Source of the DNA: Thioalkalivibrio sulfidiphilus
Lineage (GTDB): Bacteria; Pseudomonadota; Gammaproteobacteria; Ectothiorhodospirales; Ectothiorhodospiraceae
DNA: 34,491 nucleotides
NCBI RefSeq assembly: GCF_000377945.1
Contig: NZ_KB898953.1
Location: 1 to 34,491, forward strand
Direction of reading: 5' to 3'
Shown here in pieces: positions 2,650 through 16,801 of this stretch; the first letter of the stretch is position 1; every line of letters starts with the position of its first letter. The position numbers and the translations under genes were made by a program. Under the pieces are notes generated by a model. That model saw only the letters and a list, made by a program, of their open reading frames with translations, did no database searches and was not told where the DNA came from.

Positions 2650-3633
2650 ATGTCAGACAAAGGGATCCTGGTCACCGGCGGCGCCGGCTACATCGGCAGC
2701 CATGTGGCGCTCATGCTGGCGGAGGCCGGCGAGCGGGTGGTGGTGCTGGACAACCTGTCCACCGGCTTTCGGGAGGCGGTGCTGCATGGCACCTTCGTGC
2801 AGGGCGACGTGGCCGACCGGGACCTGGTGGCCAAGACCCTGAAGACCCACGACATCGACACGGTGATGCACTTCGCCGCCCACACCATCGTGCCGGAGTC
2901 GGTCTCCGACCCGCTCAAGTACTACCGCAACAACACCTGCGCCACCCGCAACCTGCTGGAATCCTGCCGCGACGCCGGCGTGAAGCACTTCGTGTTCTCC
3001 TCCACGGCCGCCGTCTACGGCATCCCCGAAGGGGGACTCGCCCGGGAGGACACCCCCACCGCCCCCATCAATCCCTACGGCACCTCCAAGCTCATGAGCG
3101 AGTGGATGCTGCGGGACCTGTCCGCCGCCACGGACCTGCGCCACGTGGCGCTGCGCTACTTCAACGTGGCCGGCTCCGACCCGGCCGGGCGCATCGGCCA
3201 GTCCACGAAGAACGCCACCCTGCTCACCAAGGTGGCCTGCGAGGCGGCGCTCGGCAAGCGCAAGGAACTGATCATCTTCGGCACCGACTACCCCACCCCC
3301 GACGGCACCGGCGTGCGTGACTACATCCACGTCACCGACCTGGCCAGCGCCCACGTCCGCGCCCTGGATTACCTCAGAAACGGCGGCGAGTCCCGCACCC
3401 TCAACGTGGGCTATGGCCACGGCTACAGCGTGCGCGAGGTGATCGAGGCCGTGGAGCGCGCCCACGGTGGCCCCCTGCCCGTCCGGGAAGCCGAACGCCG
3501 TGCCGGCGACCCGCCCCAGCTGATCGCCGTCACCGACGCCATCCGCCAGACCCTGGACTGGACCCCCGAACTGGATGACCTGGACCGCATCGTGGAGACC
3601 GCCCTGGCCTGGGAGCGCAAGCTCGGTTCCTAA
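2650..3633 (+). CDS. galE: UDP-glucose 4-epimerase
   Basis: Interconverts UDP-glucose and UDP-galactose using bound NAD. The 327-residue protein is an extended short-chain dehydrogenase. The nucleotide motif is TGGAGYIGSH (residues 9-18), the catalytic Ser/Thr lies in FSSTAAVYG (about 118-119), and the YxxxK pair is Tyr143-Lys147. It also has the GalE signatures ALRYFNVAGSDP and DGTGVRDYIHVTDLA. AAGGGAG before the ATG is a good ribosome site. Placement between ugd and an RmlB homologue supports nucleotide-sugar supply for polysaccharide. GalE-like 4-epimerases vary in substrate (Glc, GlcNAc, uronic acids), so the exact sugar is not certain. Confidence 0.93.
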   Translation: MSDKGILVTGGAGYIGSHVALMLAEAGERVVVLDNLSTGFREAVLHGTFVQGDVADRDLVAKTLKTHDIDTVMHFAAHTIVPESVSDPLKYYRNNTCATRNLLESCRDAGVKHFVFSSTAAVYGIPEGGLAREDTPTAPINPYGTSKLMSEWMLRDLSAATDLRHVALRYFNVAGSDPAGRIGQSTKNATLLTKVACEAALGKRKELIIFGTDYPTPDGTGVRDYIHVTDLASAHVRALDYLRNGGESRTLNVGYGHGYSVREVIEAVERAHGGPLPVREAERRAGDPPQLIAVTDAIRQTLDWTPELDDLDRIVETALAWERKLGS

Positions 3634-3642
3634 AAAGCGTGC

Positions 3643-3771
3643 TCTCTCGCTGAGACGCGGGGGCGCAGGGAAAGGCAACAATATGTCCTCTCACGGAGGC
3701 ACGGGGACACGTAGGAAAGGCATTTTGATGAGTAAAGACTTCCCTGCGCCTCTGTGGCTCCGTGAGAGGAT
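3643..3771. repeat. Long-hairpin repeat: extra left arm plus complete copy
   Basis: A cgc-type left arm (3643-3672) is followed by a cac-type left arm (3685-3710) and one right arm ending CTCCGTGAGAGGAT (about 3743-3771). The interior has the conserved TTTTGATGAGTAAA-like loop. The right arm begins with cgc-type sequence (CCTGCGCCTCTG) and ends as cac-type, so it is a hybrid, as recombination between copies would produce. Confidence 0.7.
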
Positions 3772-3843
3772 GGGTTTGGAGTTTGTGGTGTAGAGTCAAG
3801 CAATCGCCAAAACTGATTACCTTAGCCTGCGTCAACAGGCTGG

Positions 3844-4905: not shown

Positions 4906-4923
4906 CGCGGTCCTTCCCAACCC

Positions 4924-5010
4924 ATCCTCTCACGGAGCCACAGAGACACGGGGAAGGATCTTCTCATCAAAACGCCTGTCCTCCGTGGCTCCGTGCCCCC
5001 GTGAGAGGAC
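4924..5010. repeat. Long-hairpin intergenic repeat, complete copy
   Basis: The left arm starts TCCTCTCACGGAGCCACAG and the right arm ends CCCCCGTGAGAGGA. About 24 of 29 arm positions pair around a loop containing TTCTCATCAAAACG. It lies between the convergent rmlB-like and VanZ-like genes and may serve as a bidirectional terminator (inference). Confidence 0.75.
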
Positions 5011-5057
5011 ATACTTCTGCCTTTCCCCAGCCCCCGTAAGAGTAGCGCGTCTTCCCC

Positions 5058-9599: not shown

Positions 9600-10967
9600 C
9601 TACCGATTCAGATCATGCTTCTTCAGCAGGTCATACAGCGTCGGCCGGCTCACCCCCAGCAGTTCGGCGGCCCGGGAGATGTTGCCGTCCACGATCTGCA
9701 GGGTACGACGCAAGGCCTTGGCCTCGGCCTCGTCGCGAACCTGGCGCAGGTTGAGCATCAACGGATCCTCACCCTCGGGCGAAAGCTCCAGGTCCTCGAC
9801 ATTGATCTGATTACCCTCCGCCATGATCACCGCCCGCTTCACCCGGTTCTCCAGCTCGCGCACGTTGCCGGGCCAGGTATGGCGCTCCATGGCCTTCAGG
9901 GCCTCGGCGGTGAAGCCCTTCAAGGGACGCCCCTGCTCCTTGGCAAATCGCTCCAGCAACGCCCGGGCCAGGAGCAGGGTATCGCCGCTGCGCTCGCGCA
10001 GCGGCGGGATGGTGACGGTCATCTCGCTGATACGATAGAAAAGGTCCTCGCGGAAGCGGCCTTCCTCGATCAGTGTCGTGAGATCCTGGTGGGTCGCGCA
10101 GACCACACGCACATCCACCGGGATCTCCTCCCGGCCGCCGACCCGCTCCACCACCCGCTCCTGCAGGAAACGCAGCAGCTTGGCCTGGAGCGGGTGCGGC
10201 AGGTCCCCCACCTCGTCCAGGAACAGGGTGCCGCCGTCGGCGTACTCGATCTTGCCCTTGGTCTGCTTGGCCGCGCCGGTGAAGGCGCCTTTCTCATAGC
10301 CGAACAGCTCAGACTCCAGCAGGTTGTCCGGGATCGCGGCGCAATTGATGGCCACGAAGCGGAAATCCTTGCGGGGGCTCAGGGCGTGGATGGAACGGGC
10401 CACCACCTCCTTGCCCGTGCCACTCTCGCCCAGCAGCAGGGTGGTCACATCCACCGGCGCCACCTTCTCCACGGTACGGCAGACCTTGAGCATCTCAGGA
10501 CTGCCGGCAATCAGGCCCGGCAGGGCTGTCGTCCCCGCCCCATCCCGCAGACGGCGGTTCTCCCGCTCCAGTTCGTAGAGACGCTGGGCCCGCTTGACGA
10601 TCAGGTTGAGCAGATCCGCGTCCACCGGCTTCTGGTAGAAGTCGTAGGCACCCAGACCCACGGCCTTGACCGCGTTCTCCCGGTCGCTGTTGCCGGTCAC
10701 CACGATGACCTTGGTCTCCGGCGCCAGGGTCAGGATCTGCTCCAGGGTCGCCAGTCCTTCACTGGCCCCGCCCGGGTCCGGGGGCAACCCCAGGTCCAGG
10801 GTCACCACCGCGGGCTCGGAACGTCGCAGCTGGGCGATGGCCTCATCCCGGGTGGTCGCGGTCACCACCTCGAAATCGTCGAAACACCAGCGCAACTGGT
10901 TCAGCAGCCCCGGATCATCCTCCACCAGCATCAACACAGGTCGTTGTTCCGCAGCCCCCATCAGCAC
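9600..10967 (-). CDS. prsR: PrsR-type sigma54-dependent response regulator
   Basis: An NtrC-class activator of 455 residues. The receiver domain (about 10-130) has the acidic pair EDD (16-18) and phospho-acceptor Asp58 in [10 protein letters not shown], with the lysine in [10 protein letters not shown]. The AAA+ domain has Walker A GESGTGKE, the sigma54-contact loop GAFTGA, Walker [12 protein letters not shown] and the arginine region FREDLFYRI. The C-terminal Fis-type helix-turn-helix ends [23 protein letters not shown]. The overall sequence resembles the regulator of PEP-CTERM/exosortase-linked polysaccharide loci. The GTG at 10967 or the ATG at 10961 could start; GGAG lies 4 or 10 bases upstream. 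Its usual kinase PrsK is not in the window. Confidence 0.88.
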
Positions 10968-11429
10968 ACCACTCCATTGTTCACGTCAGACATGTAAATC
11001 GTGACCTCAGCCCATCCCTCTCACCCGCAGGTCGGGCTTCAGCCCGACAGCCAAACCTGCCAGTACCACCCAAGCCCGGGAGTGAGCGAAACCCACCCTG
11101 CAATCTCAGGGATCAAGCCCGCCCCCGCTGGACACGACGCACCCACATTGTGAATCAAATGCGTACGGATCGACAGCCGACGCCCCAGTCTGCCGCCTGG
11201 CAGATCGTCAGGAACGGTGTGATCGAGGGTCAGCCACGCTCTGACAAACACCCGATTCCACGACCCAACCAGGCTCGGGTGACAGACGTCGCAAATTCAC
11301 AGATATACGGAAAATTGGTCCCAAAAAGCTGACGAAGTGCCGCATGGGCTGTGATGCCCTTCACGGAGATGCCCGTCCCGATCAAGCACTATTTGTCCAA
11401 CGTCAAACATCGGCCCAGTGTCGATCAAC
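10968..11429. other. Intergenic region upstream of prsR and of the riboswitch
   Basis: No convincing gene is seen. It holds a perfect palindrome GTCGGGCTTCAGCCCGAC at 11031-11048, a common dispersed hairpin. It must also hold the promoter for prsR on the minus strand and that of the riboswitch transcript on the plus strand. I could not find a convincing -24/-12 or -35/-10 pair. Confidence 0.5.
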
Positions 11430-11508
11430 CGAAACGGCATACCCGACCGAAAGGCGGGGACGCAAAACCACCGGTCTACGGATTATCCAGGACAGCGGGG
11501 TTACCGAA
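11430..11508 (+). ncRNA. Cyclic di-GMP-I riboswitch (GEMM)
   Basis: The conserved GEMM-I skeleton is present in order: CGGCATACCC, a GAAA tetraloop at 11449-11452, GGGGACGCAAAACCACCGG (11456-11474) including the invariant GGACGCAAA and the tetraloop receptor side, then GACAGCGGGGTTACCG (11491-11506). These match the c-di-GMP-binding aptamer closely. It lies about 208 bases before the lipoprotein start at 11716 on the same strand. No T-tract terminator follows, so the mode of control is not visible. The aptamer identity is strong; the regulated gene is inferred from position. Confidence 0.9.
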
Positions 11509-11715
11509 ATGATCATGCAACAGGTGCACGCGTGCGATCAGCGCGCTGACTGCAACAGGGCCAAGACCGGTCTCACGGCCACGGGTACCCGCTCACCCGC
11601 CCGTCAGACCTCCGAAGATGACACCCGTATTCAGCGCAAACTCTGCGCAGACGGCATGGCTCGGCCCATGACCGCCGAGTCCAAAACTGCGGCCAGCGGC
11701 CGCACCCGGAGCCCC

Positions 11716-12162
11716 ATGAAGCTGAAGTTGCTGCTCAAGACCCTCCCGGCCCTGCTCGCGGCAGGATTCCTCCTCACCGGCTGCGGCGGCGGAGACGGCG
11801 GCAGCACCTCCAGCTCCAGCGGCAACACCGGTAGTGGCACCACCTCCACCTGGTACATGGCCGTCCGGGCCTTCAACTCAGAAACCGAATACAGCCCCTA
11901 CTCCAACGAAGCCGCCGGCACCCTCGCTGCCGGCAGTCGCGTGACACTCGCGTGGGAAGCCCCCACCCGCACCCTCGACGGGCAGTGCACAACTGTCGCA
12001 GGCTATGTGATCGAGATGGGCACCCGCTCAGGCATCTACAGCCACGATGTAGAGGTTATCAACGGGTCCAACAGTCTGACCTGCTGGGCGACTGGCACCG
12101 ATGACGGTTGCAACACCACCATCTACACCTGCGAAGCCCAGGTCCAGATCCCCAGCGCTTGA
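11716..12162 (+). CDS. Small lipoprotein with fibronectin III-like segments
   Basis: A 148-residue protein. Residues 1-23 are a lipoprotein signal (basic MKLKLLLK, hydrophobic core, lipobox LLTGC with Cys23), followed by a Gly/Ser linker. Residues ~45-70 (WYMAVRAFNSETEYSPYSNEA) look like the last strands of a fibronectin type III domain. Residues ~77-105 (RVTLAWEAPT to AGYVIEMG) look like the first strands of another. Upstream codons are open to 11344 but include the riboswitch, so the ATG at 11716 with CGGAG before it is chosen. It is probably anchored in a membrane facing outward. Function unknown; the riboswitch suggests a role in c-di-GMP-controlled matrix or attachment. Confidence 0.7.
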   Translation: MKLKLLLKTLPALLAAGFLLTGCGGGDGGSTSSSSGNTGSGTTSTWYMAVRAFNSETEYSPYSNEAAGTLAAGSRVTLAWEAPTRTLDGQCTTVAGYVIEMGTRSGIYSHDVEVINGSNSLTCWATGTDDGCNTTIYTCEAQVQIPSA

Positions 12163-12200
12163 TCCCGCAGGGACGCGGAACCGCAGAGAGCACAAACCCG

Positions 12201-12273
12201 TCCTCTCACGGGGACACGGAGCCACGGAGAAGGCTCTTTTCCCAAATACCTTTCTCCGTGCCCCCACGAGAAA
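12201..12273. repeat. Long-hairpin intergenic repeat, shorter copy
   Basis: The left arm TCCTCTCACGGGGACACGG begins at 12201 and the right arm CTCCGTGCCCCCACGAGA ends near 12273. The loop AAGGCTCTTTTCCC is shorter than in other copies. It follows the lipoprotein gene by about 40 bases. Confidence 0.7.
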
Positions 12274-12282
12274 CATCGCAAT

Positions 12283-12358
12283 AGCTCCGTAGGCCCGACA
12301 GAGCGCAAGCGGGATCGGGCAGCTTATGCCGGACACCGCGACGCTCTGTCCGGCCTAT
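12283..12358. repeat. Palindromic repeat (ccgtaggcccgaYaragcgcaagcg type), copy 1
   Basis: A ~76-base element running from CTCCGTAGGCCCGACAGAGC to CTCTGTCCGGCCTA. Its ends are mutually complementary (TAGGCC with GGCCTA). Two closer copies are at 15129-15205 and 15328-15406. It is followed by a fragment of the GATGGG-type element (12363-12395). Confidence 0.75.
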
Positions 12359-12404
12359 CACTGCGCTTCTCCCATCCTAGGGCTACGCTGAAACAAAAAC
12401 CCCA

Positions 12405-12487
12405 TCCTCTCACGGAGCCACAGAGGCACGGATAAAGACGTTACGTTCAAAATGCCTTCCCCGCGGCTCCGTGTCCCCGTGAGAGAA
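12405..12487. repeat. Long-hairpin intergenic repeat, complete copy
   Basis: The left arm TCCTCTCACGGAGCCACAG and right arm GGCTCCGTGTCCCCGTGAGAG enclose the second loop type, with ACGTTACGTTCAAAA. A diverged tail CAGGCCTTTGAATTCC lies at about 12525-12540. It fills the gap before the aldo/keto reductase. Confidence 0.75.
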
Positions 12488-12565
12488 TAGGGTTTCGACC
12501 TTCCCCGCCCCTCCGCGAGTCAACAGGCCTTTGAATTCCAAACCGCCTGCCGCACACTCCACCCC

Positions 12566-13519
12566 ATGAAACAGCGGCGATTCGGCAACACCGACCTCCA
12601 CCTCTCTGAAATCGGCTTCGGCGCCTGGGCCATCGGCGGGCAGAGCTTCGGCCCGGTTGACCGCAAGCAGGCCCTCGACACCCTCGCTCGGGCCGAGGAA
12701 CTGGGCTGCAACTTCATCGATACCGCCGCCGTCTACGGCGACTCCGAGGCCATCATCGGCGAGTTCCTCAAAACCCGCCGCGACCGCTGGATCCTCGCCT
12801 CCAAATACTCCGGCCAGAAGCCCGGCCTGCGCCAGACCCTGGAGGCGCAACTCCAGGCGCTTGGTACCGACACCATCGACTTCTACCAGATCCACTGGAT
12901 GCCCGGCGCCTCGGAGCGCCACCTCATCGATGAACTTCAGGCCGCCAAACAGGCAGGCAAGATCCGCTACACCGGCGTCTCCCTCTATTCCGCCGGCGAC
13001 CTGGAGCGGGCCCTGGCCACCCCGGAACTGGACGGCATCCAGCTCAAGATCAGCCTGCTCTCCCCCAGCCCCTTCCACGAATACCGTGAGCGCATCCGCC
13101 AGTCCGGCAAGGGCGTGCTGGCCCGATCATCGCTCGAAGACGGCTTCCTCACCGGCAAATACAGCGCCGACACCCGTTTCACCACCCCGGGCGACAAACG
13201 CGCCGAACTCACCCCCGAGCAGATCCGCAACCTCGCCGCCAAGGCCGAGGCCTTCAAACACCTTTGCCCCGATGATCTGCCCCTGCTGATGCTCGCCACC
13301 CGCTACGTGCTGTCCTTCCCCGAAGTCACCAGCCTGCTGCTCAGCAGCAAGACCCCGGCCCAGGCCGACACCAACTTCGGCCAGATACCCGCCGGGGACC
13401 TACCGCCCGACACCCTCCAGCGGATCGCCCGACTGCAAACCGAACTGCGCCTGTTCGACAACCCCGACCCGCTGCGCAAACTCGTCCACGTCCTGCGCCG
13501 CTGGCTGAAGCCCGGCTGA
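12566..13519 (+). CDS. Aldo/keto reductase family oxidoreductase
   Basis: A 317-residue NAD(P)H-dependent carbonyl reductase of the (beta/alpha)8-barrel type. The start RRFGNTDLHLSEIGFGAWAIGG is typical of the YajO/Tas-like branch. The tetrad residues are visible: Asp and Tyr in FIDTAAVYGDSE, Lys in LASKYSG and His in YQIHWMPG. The C-terminal EVTSLLLSSKTPAQADTNF is the cofactor-binding region. Substrate unknown. It stands alone between repeats. A role in processing keto-sugars is possible but there is no direct evidence. Confidence 0.88.
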   Translation: MKQRRFGNTDLHLSEIGFGAWAIGGQSFGPVDRKQALDTLARAEELGCNFIDTAAVYGDSEAIIGEFLKTRRDRWILASKYSGQKPGLRQTLEAQLQALGTDTIDFYQIHWMPGASERHLIDELQAAKQAGKIRYTGVSLYSAGDLERALATPELDGIQLKISLLSPSPFHEYRERIRQSGKGVLARSSLEDGFLTGKYSADTRFTTPGDKRAELTPEQIRNLAAKAEAFKHLCPDDLPLLMLATRYVLSFPEVTSLLLSSKTPAQADTNFGQIPAGDLPPDTLQRIARLQTELRLFDNPDPLRKLVHVLRRWLKPG

Positions 13520-13528
13520 CAAAACCTG

Positions 13529-13764
13529 CGCTCTCGCGGAGGCGCTGAGTCGCGGGGAAACCAAACCCCATGACTCTCGCAAAGCCGCGAACAACAACAA
13601 AGGCCCATCCTCACACGGAGCCACAGAGGCACGGGGAAGGCTTTTTGATCAGAACGCTCTTCTCCGCGCCCCTGCGCCTCTGCGAGAGAACCGGTTTTCG
13701 GTTTTGCGGCGGGCACGGCCCGCCCTATACCCCCGTGGCCCCGTGCCTCCGTGAGAGGATAAGG
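13529..13764. repeat. Mosaic of hairpin repeats and GC palindrome
   Basis: The order seen is: cgc-type left arm GCTCTCGCGGAGGCGCTGAG (from 13529), a fragment ACTCTCGCAAAGCCGCGA (from 13572), a cac-type left arm TCCTCACACGGAGCCACAG (from 13608), the loop CTTTTTGATCAGAACGC, a cgc-type right arm ending CTCTGCGAGAGAA (to 13690), the GGCGGGCACGGCCCGCCCTA palindrome (13708-13727), and a cac-type right arm ending CCGTGAGAGGATAAGG. This looks like one element broken by others. No gene lies between 13520 and 13822. Confidence 0.7.
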
Positions 13765-13822: not shown

Positions 13823-15010
13823 ATGACCACCCGCGTACTCGTCCTCGACGCCAACCAACGCAGCGCGCTGGCCATCACCCGGTCCCTGGGCAAAGACCCC
13901 AACATCACGGTCCTGACCGCCGACGACACCGACACCGCCCTGGCCGGCGCCTCCCGCTTCTCCAGCCAGTACCTGAAATGCCCCTCCCCGGAACACGAAC
14001 CCGGCGCCTTCATCGACTGGCTCACCGCCACCCTCAAGATCCACGGCATCAAACAGCTCTTCCCCGCCACCGAGATCAGCAGCTACCTCTGCCTCATGCA
14101 CCGGGAGCAACTCCTCCCCTGCCAGCTCCCCTTCCCCGCCCTGGACACCGTCCTGTCCCTCGCGGACAAGGGACGCCTGGTTGCCCTGGCCCGGGAACTG
14201 GGTGTGTCCCACCCCGAGTCCCGGCTGGTGATCGGTGCCGAACAGTTCGACCCCAACGCCATCGACCGCTACCCGGTCATCCTCAAGCCCTGCCTGTCCC
14301 GCCGCTGGATCGGCAACGGATGGCTCTCCACCTCCGTGCACCTGGCCCGATCCAGGGAAGAGGCCCGGCGCCTGATCGAGACCCTGCCCTACCTGCGCCA
14401 TCACCCCTTCATGGTCCAGGCATTCATCCCCGGCAGCGGCGCCGGCGTCTTCGCCCTCTACAACCAGGGCAAGGCCGTCACCTTCTTCGCCCACAAGCGC
14501 CTGCGGGAAAAACCGCCCACCGGCGGCGTCAGCGTCCTGTCGGAAAGCGCGCCCCTGGACCCGCGGCTGTTGGACATGTCCCGCCGCCTGCTGGACCACG
14601 CCCAGTGGCACGGCGTCGCCATGGTGGAATTCCGGGTCACCCCCGAAGGTGAGCCCTACCTGATGGAAGTGAACCCCCGCTTCTGGGGCTCCCTGCAACT
14701 GGCCATCGACTGCGGCCTGGACTTTCCCCACCTGTTGTTCGAGATGGGCCAAGGGAAAACCCCCACCCCGCCGGCCAACTACCCCATCGGCCAACGCCTG
14801 CGCTGGCTGATGGGCGACCTGGACAGCCTCTACCTCACCCTGCGCAACAGCCGGGACTTCAGCAAAACCCAGCGCCTGCGCCGAGCCCTCGCCTTCCTCA
14901 ACCCCGGCCTCGGCACCACCCGCTACGAAGTCAACCGCCTCGGCGACCTGGGCCCGGCCCGTTACGAACTGGTCCAATATCTCAGGGATCTGCTGCGGCT
15001 GAATCGCTGA
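13823..15010 (+). CDS. ATP-grasp domain protein (carboxylate-amine ligase-like)
   Basis: A 395-residue ATP-grasp enzyme. The N-terminus RVLVLDANQRSALAITRSLG is a Rossmann-like pre-ATP-grasp domain. The ATP-binding core includes YPVILKPCLSR (about 150-160), the loop MVQAFIPGSGAGVFALYNQG, and the metal-binding VEFRVTPEGEPYLMEVNPRFWGSL near 272-296, where the acidic and Asn residues are intact. Proteins of this type occur in polysaccharide and cell-surface loci, and probably join a carboxylate to an amine at the expense of ATP. The substrate cannot be told from sequence. No strong ribosome site precedes the ATG. Confidence 0.82.
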   Translation: MTTRVLVLDANQRSALAITRSLGKDPNITVLTADDTDTALAGASRFSSQYLKCPSPEHEPGAFIDWLTATLKIHGIKQLFPATEISSYLCLMHREQLLPCQLPFPALDTVLSLADKGRLVALARELGVSHPESRLVIGAEQFDPNAIDRYPVILKPCLSRRWIGNGWLSTSVHLARSREEARRLIETLPYLRHHPFMVQAFIPGSGAGVFALYNQGKAVTFFAHKRLREKPPTGGVSVLSESAPLDPRLLDMSRRLLDHAQWHGVAMVEFRVTPEGEPYLMEVNPRFWGSLQLAIDCGLDFPHLLFEMGQGKTPTPPANYPIGQRLRWLMGDLDSLYLTLRNSRDFSKTQRLRRALAFLNPGLGTTRYEVNRLGDLGPARYELVQYLRDLLRLNR

Positions 15011-15128
15011 AAACCAAAAAATTGTCCTCTCACGGAGCCACAGAGCCACGGAAAAAAGGCGTTACGTTTAAAAGGCCCTCCCCGTGGCTCCGTGCCCCCG
15101 TGAGAGAACAAGCCTTTGGCTTTTTTCA

Positions 15129-15205
15129 GCTCCGTAGGCCCGATAAAGCGCAAGCGGTATCGGGCAGCTTTGCCGGACACCGCTACGCTTTGTCCGGCCT
15201 ACGAC
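15129..15205. repeat. Palindromic repeat (ccgtaggcccgaYaragcgcaagcg type), copy 2
   Basis: The copy inside unit 1 of the tandem array. It runs from GCTCCGTAGGCCCGATAAAG to TTTGTCCGGCCTACG and is almost identical to the copy at 15328-15406. Confidence 0.8.
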
Positions 15206-15327
15206 TGAGAACCCAAAAATAGTCCTCTCACGGAGCCACAGAGGCACGGAGAAAATCCGTTACGTTCAAAAAGCCCTCCCCGTGGTTCCGTGCCCCCGTG
15301 AGAGAACAAGCCTTTGGCTTTTTTTCA

Positions 15328-15406
15328 GCTCCGTAGGCCCGATAGAGCGCAAGCGGTATCGGGCAGCTTATGCCGGACACCGCTACGCTTTGTCCGGCCT
15401 ACGACT
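15328..15406. repeat. Palindromic repeat (ccgtaggcccgaYaragcgcaagcg type), copy 3
   Basis: The copy inside unit 2 of the tandem array. It keeps the TTATGCCGG interior also found in copy 1 at 12283-12358, where copy 2 has lost two bases. Confidence 0.8.
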
Positions 15407-15669
15407 GAAAACCAGAACCATCCTCTCACGGAGCCACAGAGCCACAGAGCCACGGGGAAGGCTTTTTCATCAAAATGCTTTTCTCCGCGCCCCCGCGCCT
15501 CTGCGAGAGAACAGCCTTTGCTTTTTGATTCAAAAGCTTCCTTCACGTCTTAGCGGCTTCGCGAGAGAACCGATTTTGGTTTTGCCTTCCCCATGCCCGT
15601 GGCAGAAACGGGGTTTCTAACGACCGCGATTAGCAGTATCGTGACCAGAAACGACCCTGGAGCCCCCAC

Positions 15670-16530: not shown

Positions 16531-16545
16531 AAACAAAAAACCCCA

Positions 16546-16713
16546 TCCTCTCGCAGAGGCGCGGGGGCGCAGAGAAAGGCAAAATCAAAATCGATTCTCT
16601 CGCTAAGACGCGAAGACGCCAAGAAATGCTTTGGAATTCTTGGGATTTCCTTTGCGTCTTTGCGAGAGTAATGGGGTTGATGTTCTCCGCGCCCCCGCGC
16701 CTCTGCGAGAGAA
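16546..16713. repeat. Nested hairpin repeats (one element inside another)
   Basis: The outer arms are 16546-16576 and 16683-16713, with 29 of 31 positions complementary (cgc variant). Inside them is a second pair with CTCTCGCTAAGACGC (16597-16611) and GCGTCTTTGCGAGAG (16654-16668), which pair at 14 of 15 positions. The inner element is more AT-rich. The GGCGGGCACGGCCCACC palindrome variant follows at about 16730-16752. No gene lies between 16452 and 16801. Confidence 0.8.
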
Positions 16714-16801
16714 CAGGATTTTCGCTTTTCCGGCGGGCACGGCCCACCCAATCAGCCAATCCCAAGTCTCAGTGACACCGGGCGAGATGAGGTGTCGGGC
16801 A

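Follow-up and report, generated by a model that had tools for sequence, protein, structure and literature searches.

A c-di-GMP-I riboswitch of Thioalkalivibrio sulfidiphilus with a candidate start codon at the edge of its aptamer

Among the riboswitches of the c-di-GMP-I (GEMM-I) family, whose ligand contacts are G20, A47 and C92 (PMC4744006), Vc2 of Vibrio cholerae has been described as a translational OFF switch for tfoY (PMC7371385). Vc1 is reported to have neither a terminator nor an anti-SD and to act by an unclear mechanism, and how c-di-GMP-I aptamers work when no terminator or anti-SD is visible is open even for Vc1 (PMC4744006). In the metA SAM-II riboswitch of S. meliloti, the SD of the aptamer is needed and translation starts 74 nt downstream, at AUG2 (PMC9373788). 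Direct occlusion is attributed to SAM-II/V, SAM-III, SAM-SAH, some preQ1-I and preQ1-II riboswitches in a 2024 review (PMC10907184); in the accessible part of that review c-di-GMP-I is not among these classes, and its three mentions of c-di-GMP stand under strand exchange. Two riboswitch candidates of Thioalkalivibrio also involve start signals: the model of the mgtE motif includes SD and AUG, and P1 of the ykoW motif overlaps the SD (PMC11109978).

The aptamer, its neighbours and the lipoprotein gene

The window, that is, the whole stretch of 34,491 nucleotides of T. sulfidiphilus DNA analysed here, includes the following features (the aptamer-bearing sites compared below are denoted L plus a number):

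9600-10967, - strand: PrsR (PEP-CTERM-box response regulator), divergent neighbour; TIGR02915, 742.4 bits, cut-off 502.6
11423-11427, + strand: GATCA, possible outer P1 strand, pairing in the fold with TGATC 11510-11514 and so covering the UG of the AUG
11426-11508, + strand: c-di-GMP-I (GEMM-I) riboswitch aptamer; Rfam RF01051
11442-11458, + strand: P2 hairpin with GAAA tetraloop 11449-11452; Rfam alignment
11466-11502, + strand: P3; Rfam structure line, pairs parsed from the alignment
11497-11500, + strand: GGGG on the P3 3' strand, candidate ribosome-binding sequence, 8 nt upstream of ATG 11509
11509-11511, + strand: ATG abutting the aptamer, proposed start codon; 9 of 12 genus sites have an ATG at +1/+2 that opens at least 90 codons
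11509-11715, + strand: putative N-terminal extension of the lipoprotein frame, a 69-codon leader; no stop, best forward-frame codon score, frame-openness test
11509-12162, + strand: whole proposed reading frame, 217 aa; open frame
11708-11711, + strand: GGAG, ribosome site belonging to ATG 11716, the alternative in-frame start (spacing 4); computed -5.8 kcal/mol to the 16S tail
11716-12162, + strand: lipoprotein with signal peptide (lipobox LTGC), linker and C-terminal beta-strand domain (11845-12159); frame reading, domain model

The original prediction, made from the letters of the sequence, had placed a GEMM-I aptamer ahead of a small lipoprotein gene and had named the Rfam model as a check. 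This model (RF01051) matched the + strand of the window at 11426-11508 from end to end (model positions 1-87 of 87; 70.9 bits, gathering score 35, E 3.8e-12 in the window): by covariance model the element is a c-di-GMP-I riboswitch, and it is predicted to bind the ligand. The wording that the aptamer agrees with GEMM-I in all invariant parts was slightly too strong; the match is full-length, and model position 15, a conserved A, is U in the window (11440), a replacement common to all six aptamers of the lipoprotein gene family. The Rfam structure line places AACC (11466-11469) and CCG (11471-11473) on the 5' strand of the P3 helix base, and CGG (11496-11498) and GGTT (11499-11502) on its 3' strand.

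In the Rfam alignment letters G, A and C sit at the putative equivalents of G20, A47 and C92 of Vc2. G20 of Vc2 corresponds to what we take to be model position 11, window position 11436, which is G; an A at this position is the mark of cGAMP-type aptamers. An aptamer of the cGAMP type is not favoured, the putative discriminating place being a G. The accessible part of PMC8835794 does not name the cGAMP-discriminating residue. Besides the aptamer of the window, the genome (3.05 Mb in 69 contigs) carries three more of the GEMM-I type, four in all: contig C62 has one, and contig C37 a pair separated by 1.4 kb. The Rfam model found none in 14 control genomes.

The PrsR-type regulator reported beside the aptamer was confirmed by TIGR02915 (742.4 bits against a cut-off of 502.6); PrsR adjoins the aptamer gene in the window and lies about 5.6 kb from it in G004, another genome of the genus. 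An exosortase gene (TIGR02602) is present in the genome on another contig. With 46 GGDEF matches found in the genome, c-di-GMP is plausible as an input; the suggested tie of the locus to a biofilm switch is conjectural. That no clear terminator follows the aptamer also held: the + strand of 10968-12600 contains no intrinsic terminator, and the three terminator-like sites are on the - strand, all at 12197 or beyond. No sigma-70-like promoter was detected on the + strand of this region. A sigma-54 promoter linking the gene to PrsR was discarded, the window holding 8 matches with at most 2 mismatches to the consensus against 14 by chance, the nearest more than 1.4 kb from the aptamer. The window also carries imperfect intergenic palindromes, CCTCTCACGGAGCCACAGAGGCACGG ... 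CCGTGGCTCCGTGCCCCCGTGAGAGG, with 13-14 copies of each arm, for example at 2522-2635, 3632-3786, 4915-5032, 12191-12510, 13598-13751, 15007-15527 and 16531-16736; some copies stand behind the lipoprotein gene, and weak mir matches at 2524-2620 coincide with one of them.

The lipoprotein announced behind the aptamer was recovered by reading the frame, which gives MKLKLLLKTLPALLAAGFLLTGC with a lipobox and its cysteine; the product is likely a lipid-anchored envelope protein. Its C-terminal domain occurs in six copies in 2 of 47 family genomes, each in a gene that follows such an aptamer. Three copies belong to the window genome, in the window gene and in two C37 paralogues that carry Pro-rich stalks; G004 has the corresponding three. 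A model of the domain, made from six sequences, shows seven strands, with a mean pLDDT of 86. The window protein matched no Pfam or NCBIfam family above cut-off, nor PF00041 (fn3) in Pfam at E up to 1. The protein had been called fibronectin-like: the strands are borne out by the structure model, the Pfam family is not, and together they give no more than a faint hint of such a character.

The domain at 11845-12159 opens like the last two fn3 strands (TWYMAVRAFN...SPYSNEA) and continues like the first ones (VTLAWEAP...GYVIEMG). A circularly permuted fn3 domain was rejected as a weak sign, with one of three reordered domains, that of a paralogue, at 15.3 bits against a cut-off of 25. The protein behind the aptamer of L008, a site of a sister genus, reaches the fn3 cut-off (26.0 against 25). 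Other routes to the identity of the domain were likewise put aside: PDB profile matches concerned chiefly the Pro/Glu-rich stalk found in the paralogues, the best Foldseek E was 0.14, and the best VIA-align result (Z 6.3, 86 residues, rmsd 2.9) was under the safe level of that tool, one chain among 1000 having reached Z 5 or higher. The window lipoprotein had no match among plasmid records.

The candidate edge start in the window and in related genomes

The lipoprotein gene had been assigned a start about 208 bases downstream of the aptamer, and the mechanism was to be sought in an alternative pairing with the ribosome site at 11707-11715. Neither proposal is supported in that form: ATG 11509 abuts the 3' edge of the aptamer and opens a frame of 217 codons without a stop before the lipoprotein, of which ATG 11716, 207 bases from the aptamer end, is codon 70; the second proposal rests on a start at 11716, and the edge ATG, in frame, is the layout of 9 of 12 genus GEMM-I sites. 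Aptamer, abutting ATG, open frame and the same layout at sister sites are observed, which suggests that the start signal is built into the riboswitch and not placed 200 bases downstream; the gap of about 208 bases is probably a misreading of the gene start, and 11716 could also serve as a start of the lipoprotein gene.

The comparison covered 89 sites with available DNA: 12 belong to the genus, 4 to the family outside the genus and 73 to the class outside the family. L020 and L021, whose matches are short or truncated, are not counted among them, and the class sites, drawn from the higher-scoring matches, lean to high scores. An ATG at -3 to +6 of the aptamer end opening at least 90 codons was found at 9 of 12 genus sites, 1 of 4 family sites and 5 of 73 class sites. 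Each of the other 10-nt windows downstream holds 0-2 such long-frame starts in the genus; in the class they number 1-2 in the windows at +15 to +45 and 3-11 in those at +60 to +165. Of the nine genus sites, four lie in the window genome, four are the equivalents of these in G004 and one is in G003; L005, L012 and L017 are the three without this layout. The family site with an edge start outside the genus is L008, whose edge frame is out of phase with its lipoprotein. L008 and L022, also of the sister genus, share CCAGGAAACATG after the aptamer, an ATG at +5 and a leader frame out of phase with the lipoprotein, which starts at +171 and +142 after the aptamer, respectively.

Elsewhere the gene may begin at the aptamer edge with no extension: in L066 and L085 the signal peptide stands right at the start (these proteins are weakly similar to that of L001; BLASTP E 8e-7 for the pair L001/L066); in L100, L110 and L154 the N-terminus aligns within three residues with that of the homologue L007, which starts 96 nt after its aptamer with the SD-like GAGAGAGGA; and L161 and L146 encode proteins that read as thioredoxin-like. 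A scan of contigs for GEMM-I cores with an edge ATG returned 67 loci, 19 of them with a frame of at least 100 codons or open to the end of the record, and several of these 19 frames look doubtful.

Not every conserved edge ATG goes with a conserved frame. Nine Steroidobacteraceae sites (L108, L155, L099, L132, L140, L162, L134, L160, L148) have in common ATGTACAAC and a conserved stretch just after the aptamer, preceding the gene MNVIVFSK...; the edge ATG is conserved and the reading frame that follows differs from one relative to another (L162, L148), so the stretch looks like conserved RNA and not protein. L096, L149 and L144 share the gene MSDSGIVN, and the edge ATG opens MTA... frames of more than 300, 14 and 6 codons ahead of it; the longest of these resembles an accidental fusion. 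Subtilisin-like secreted proteases, named by reading the sequences, seemingly stand behind the GEMM-I aptamers of L009, L017, L023 and L033.

Several observations bear on translation of the extension. None of the nine genus leaders contains a stop codon, and in all seven leaders of at least 40 codons the leader's own frame outscores the other two forward frames by codon score; the short leaders L001 and L006 give it the lowest score, and L004 has one reverse frame that surpasses it. The window leader has a codon score of 0.10, against a mean of 0.53 (sd 0.29) for 52 real gene pieces; among 278 overlapping intergenic pieces, 34 were stop-free, with codon scores up to 0.51. An open frame in phase with the gene at six non-identical leaders has a chance probability of about 1.3e-5 by dinucleotide shuffles under assumed independence, a value that is too small because the six leaders are relatives; for the window leader by itself, 38% of shuffles are open. 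The 40-codon extension shared by L003 and L016 gives dN 0.081 and dS 0.341, from only 15 differences. Leader peptides are alike in L004/L019 (z 4.9) and L013/L006 (z 6.2), and hardly so in the window and its orthologue L014 (z 0.7).

The supply of starts differs between the sites. The sole ATG, GTG or TTG of the leader is codon 1 in L001 and L006, which also have an in-frame TTG at -7, within the aptamer; L003 and L016 have such codons at positions 1 and 5 alone. None of these four sites has such a codon among the first 12 of the signal peptide. L004 keeps an ATG at the signal peptide, and in the window and L014 a further in-frame ATG there is preceded by a ribosome site, stronger in L014 (-9.3 kcal/mol against -5.8 in the window, computed 16S-tail pairing). 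From these comparisons we infer that the extension is translated from ATG 11509; given the low codon score of the window, its z of 0.7, its openness in 38% of shuffles and the internal ATGs, the case rests on the group of sites and less on the window.

The candidate ribosome site and competing explanations

The ribosome site of the edge start is likely GGGG 11497-11500, within P3. GGAG has no advantage over GGGG in computed pairing with the 16S tail (-6.1 kcal/mol against -6.3). The P3 strand reads GGAG in L003, L004, L016, L019, L100 and L110, leaving an unrepaired C.A mismatch, and all six of these sites have the edge start; three others mismatched at the same P3 pair (GGAA) are without it, L084 starting at +10. 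Over 125 parsed sites (156, less 7 near-identical and 24 unparsed), an edge frame accompanies 8 of 13 GGAG sites and 23 of 112 others (Fisher p 0.003, which overstates the case because the 8 GGAG sites come from about three lineages). In this count 67 of the 156 sites came from a scan demanding an ATG, and the edge start, at least 90 codons from an ATG at -3 to +6, includes doubtful frames, e.g. L104, L112, L115, L121 and L153.

Folding predicts GGGG 11497-11500 to be 98-99% paired in the ligand-free ensemble, and hence no free ribosome site in the absence of ligand; that the site is predicted to be paired without ligand too is the main difficulty for an occlusion model. The possible outer P1 pairing of GATCA with TGATC had a probability of 0.77-0.91 in one of four folded stretches and of 0.15-0.27 in the other three. 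When shuffles were compared at 12 sites, 4.7% paired as well as the window; the fractions were 0.017-0.10 for L014, L003, L016, L004, L019 and L013, and 0.39-0.74 for L001, L006, L066, L085 and L033.

The reading that we prefer, holding it with about as much belief as doubt, is a c-di-GMP-I riboswitch without a separate expression platform, whose aptamer itself includes the ribosome site and the start codon and which is turned OFF by its ligand. GGGG in the 3' strand of P3 would be the ribosome site and ATG 11509, at the 3' edge of P1, the start codon. With the start signal inside the switch c-di-GMP would block the ribosome directly: when it is bound, P1 and the junction would close over the start region, ribosome entry would be blocked and translation would be OFF. 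When c-di-GMP is low, initiation at ATG 11509 would yield the lipoprotein with a 69-residue N-terminal extension, later cut off together with the signal peptide at the lipobox cysteine. An extension lost in this way would be nearly free to drift in sequence while its frame stays open, and an OFF switch would mean that the lipoprotein is made at low c-di-GMP, not high. More tentatively, with doubt having somewhat the upper hand, the Thioalkalivibrio group may possess a direct-occlusion form of GEMM-I, with SD and start codon in the aptamer, that arose several times, its secreted proteins having gained long disposable N-terminal extensions. The layout could have originated when a gene start was brought to the aptamer edge (compare L007 at +96 with its homologues L100, L110 and L154 at the edge), and an open frame would be the main constraint on the extensions of secreted proteins.

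The strongest mechanistic rival, beside a plain start at 11716, remains translation at a distance, in which the ribosome would bind the site in the aptamer and begin synthesis at the in-frame ATG 11716, as in metA SAM-II. The anatomy is the same in both, and the retention of an ATG at the signal peptide, with a ribosome site in the window and L014 and as an ATG in L004, agrees with it; L001, L006, L003 and L016, however, have no second start there, and the distance would be 207 nt against 74 nt in metA, so that we regard this reading as unlikely. We think it equally improbable that the layout is an ordinary one, with a start at 11716, a 207-base untranslated leader acting as a strand-exchange platform on 11707-11715 and a frame kept open by the chance of GC-rich DNA. 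The more frequent downstream position of long-frame starts in the rest of the class, the starts of the relatives L008 and L022 at +171 and +142, the 0.38 probability that the window leader alone is open and a fold of 11405-11720 that pairs half of the internal GGAG are all consistent with it, but chance does not readily account for an open in-phase frame at 9 of 12 genus sites, four of them without a start at the signal peptide, nor for the fewer non-synonymous than synonymous changes per site in the extension of L003 and L016.

A transcriptional output is less probable still: c-di-GMP would stop translation of the leader and Rho would shorten the untranslated leader. No intrinsic terminator is visible, and edge leader frames exist elsewhere too, some short or out of frame with the gene, which would suit this mode of control; fusion of the genus leader in frame to the gene is, however, something that polarity would not need. 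The reading with direct occlusion from the aptamer edge offers a simple and testable mechanism, that of a start signal in the aptamer. If true, it would correct the gene starts, since annotation choosing the ATG of the signal peptide hides the layout, and would explain some c-di-GMP-I riboswitches that seem to have no expression platform. An ATG abutting the aptamer and followed by an in-phase gene is a signature by which others may be found.

Comparison with described riboswitches

Titles and abstract openings among the literature matches listed, which included few subscription journals, gave no account of a GEMM-I aptamer with the start at its edge, and the accessible parts of PMC12452182 and PMC6366702 contain nothing on this layout. 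Vc1 and Vc2 share with the window the c-di-GMP-I aptamer family; work on Vc2 cited in PMC7371385 speaks of a ribosome site distant from the aptamer, whereas that proposed for the window is inside it. The metA SAM-II riboswitch resembles the window in having an SD in the aptamer, AUG1 behind it and an in-frame AUG2 downstream, and differs in its aptamer and ligand, in the terminator between its AUGs, none being seen in the window, and in its start, which is AUG2 at 74 nt and not the first ATG, as proposed here for 11509 (PMC9373788). The mgtE and ykoW motifs are, like the window, Thioalkalivibrio riboswitch candidates that include or overlap start signals, but they are motifs other than GEMM-I, and ykoW precedes a gene for an EAL-domain protein (PMC11109978). 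The proposal for the window is of the same type as the direct-occlusion classes, in which aptamer and ribosome site are one unit and the ligand blocks the ribosome (PMC10907184, in the part accessible); these classes have the ribosome site in or next to the ligand site, and in the window GGGG lies in P3, 8 nt before the candidate start ATG 11509.
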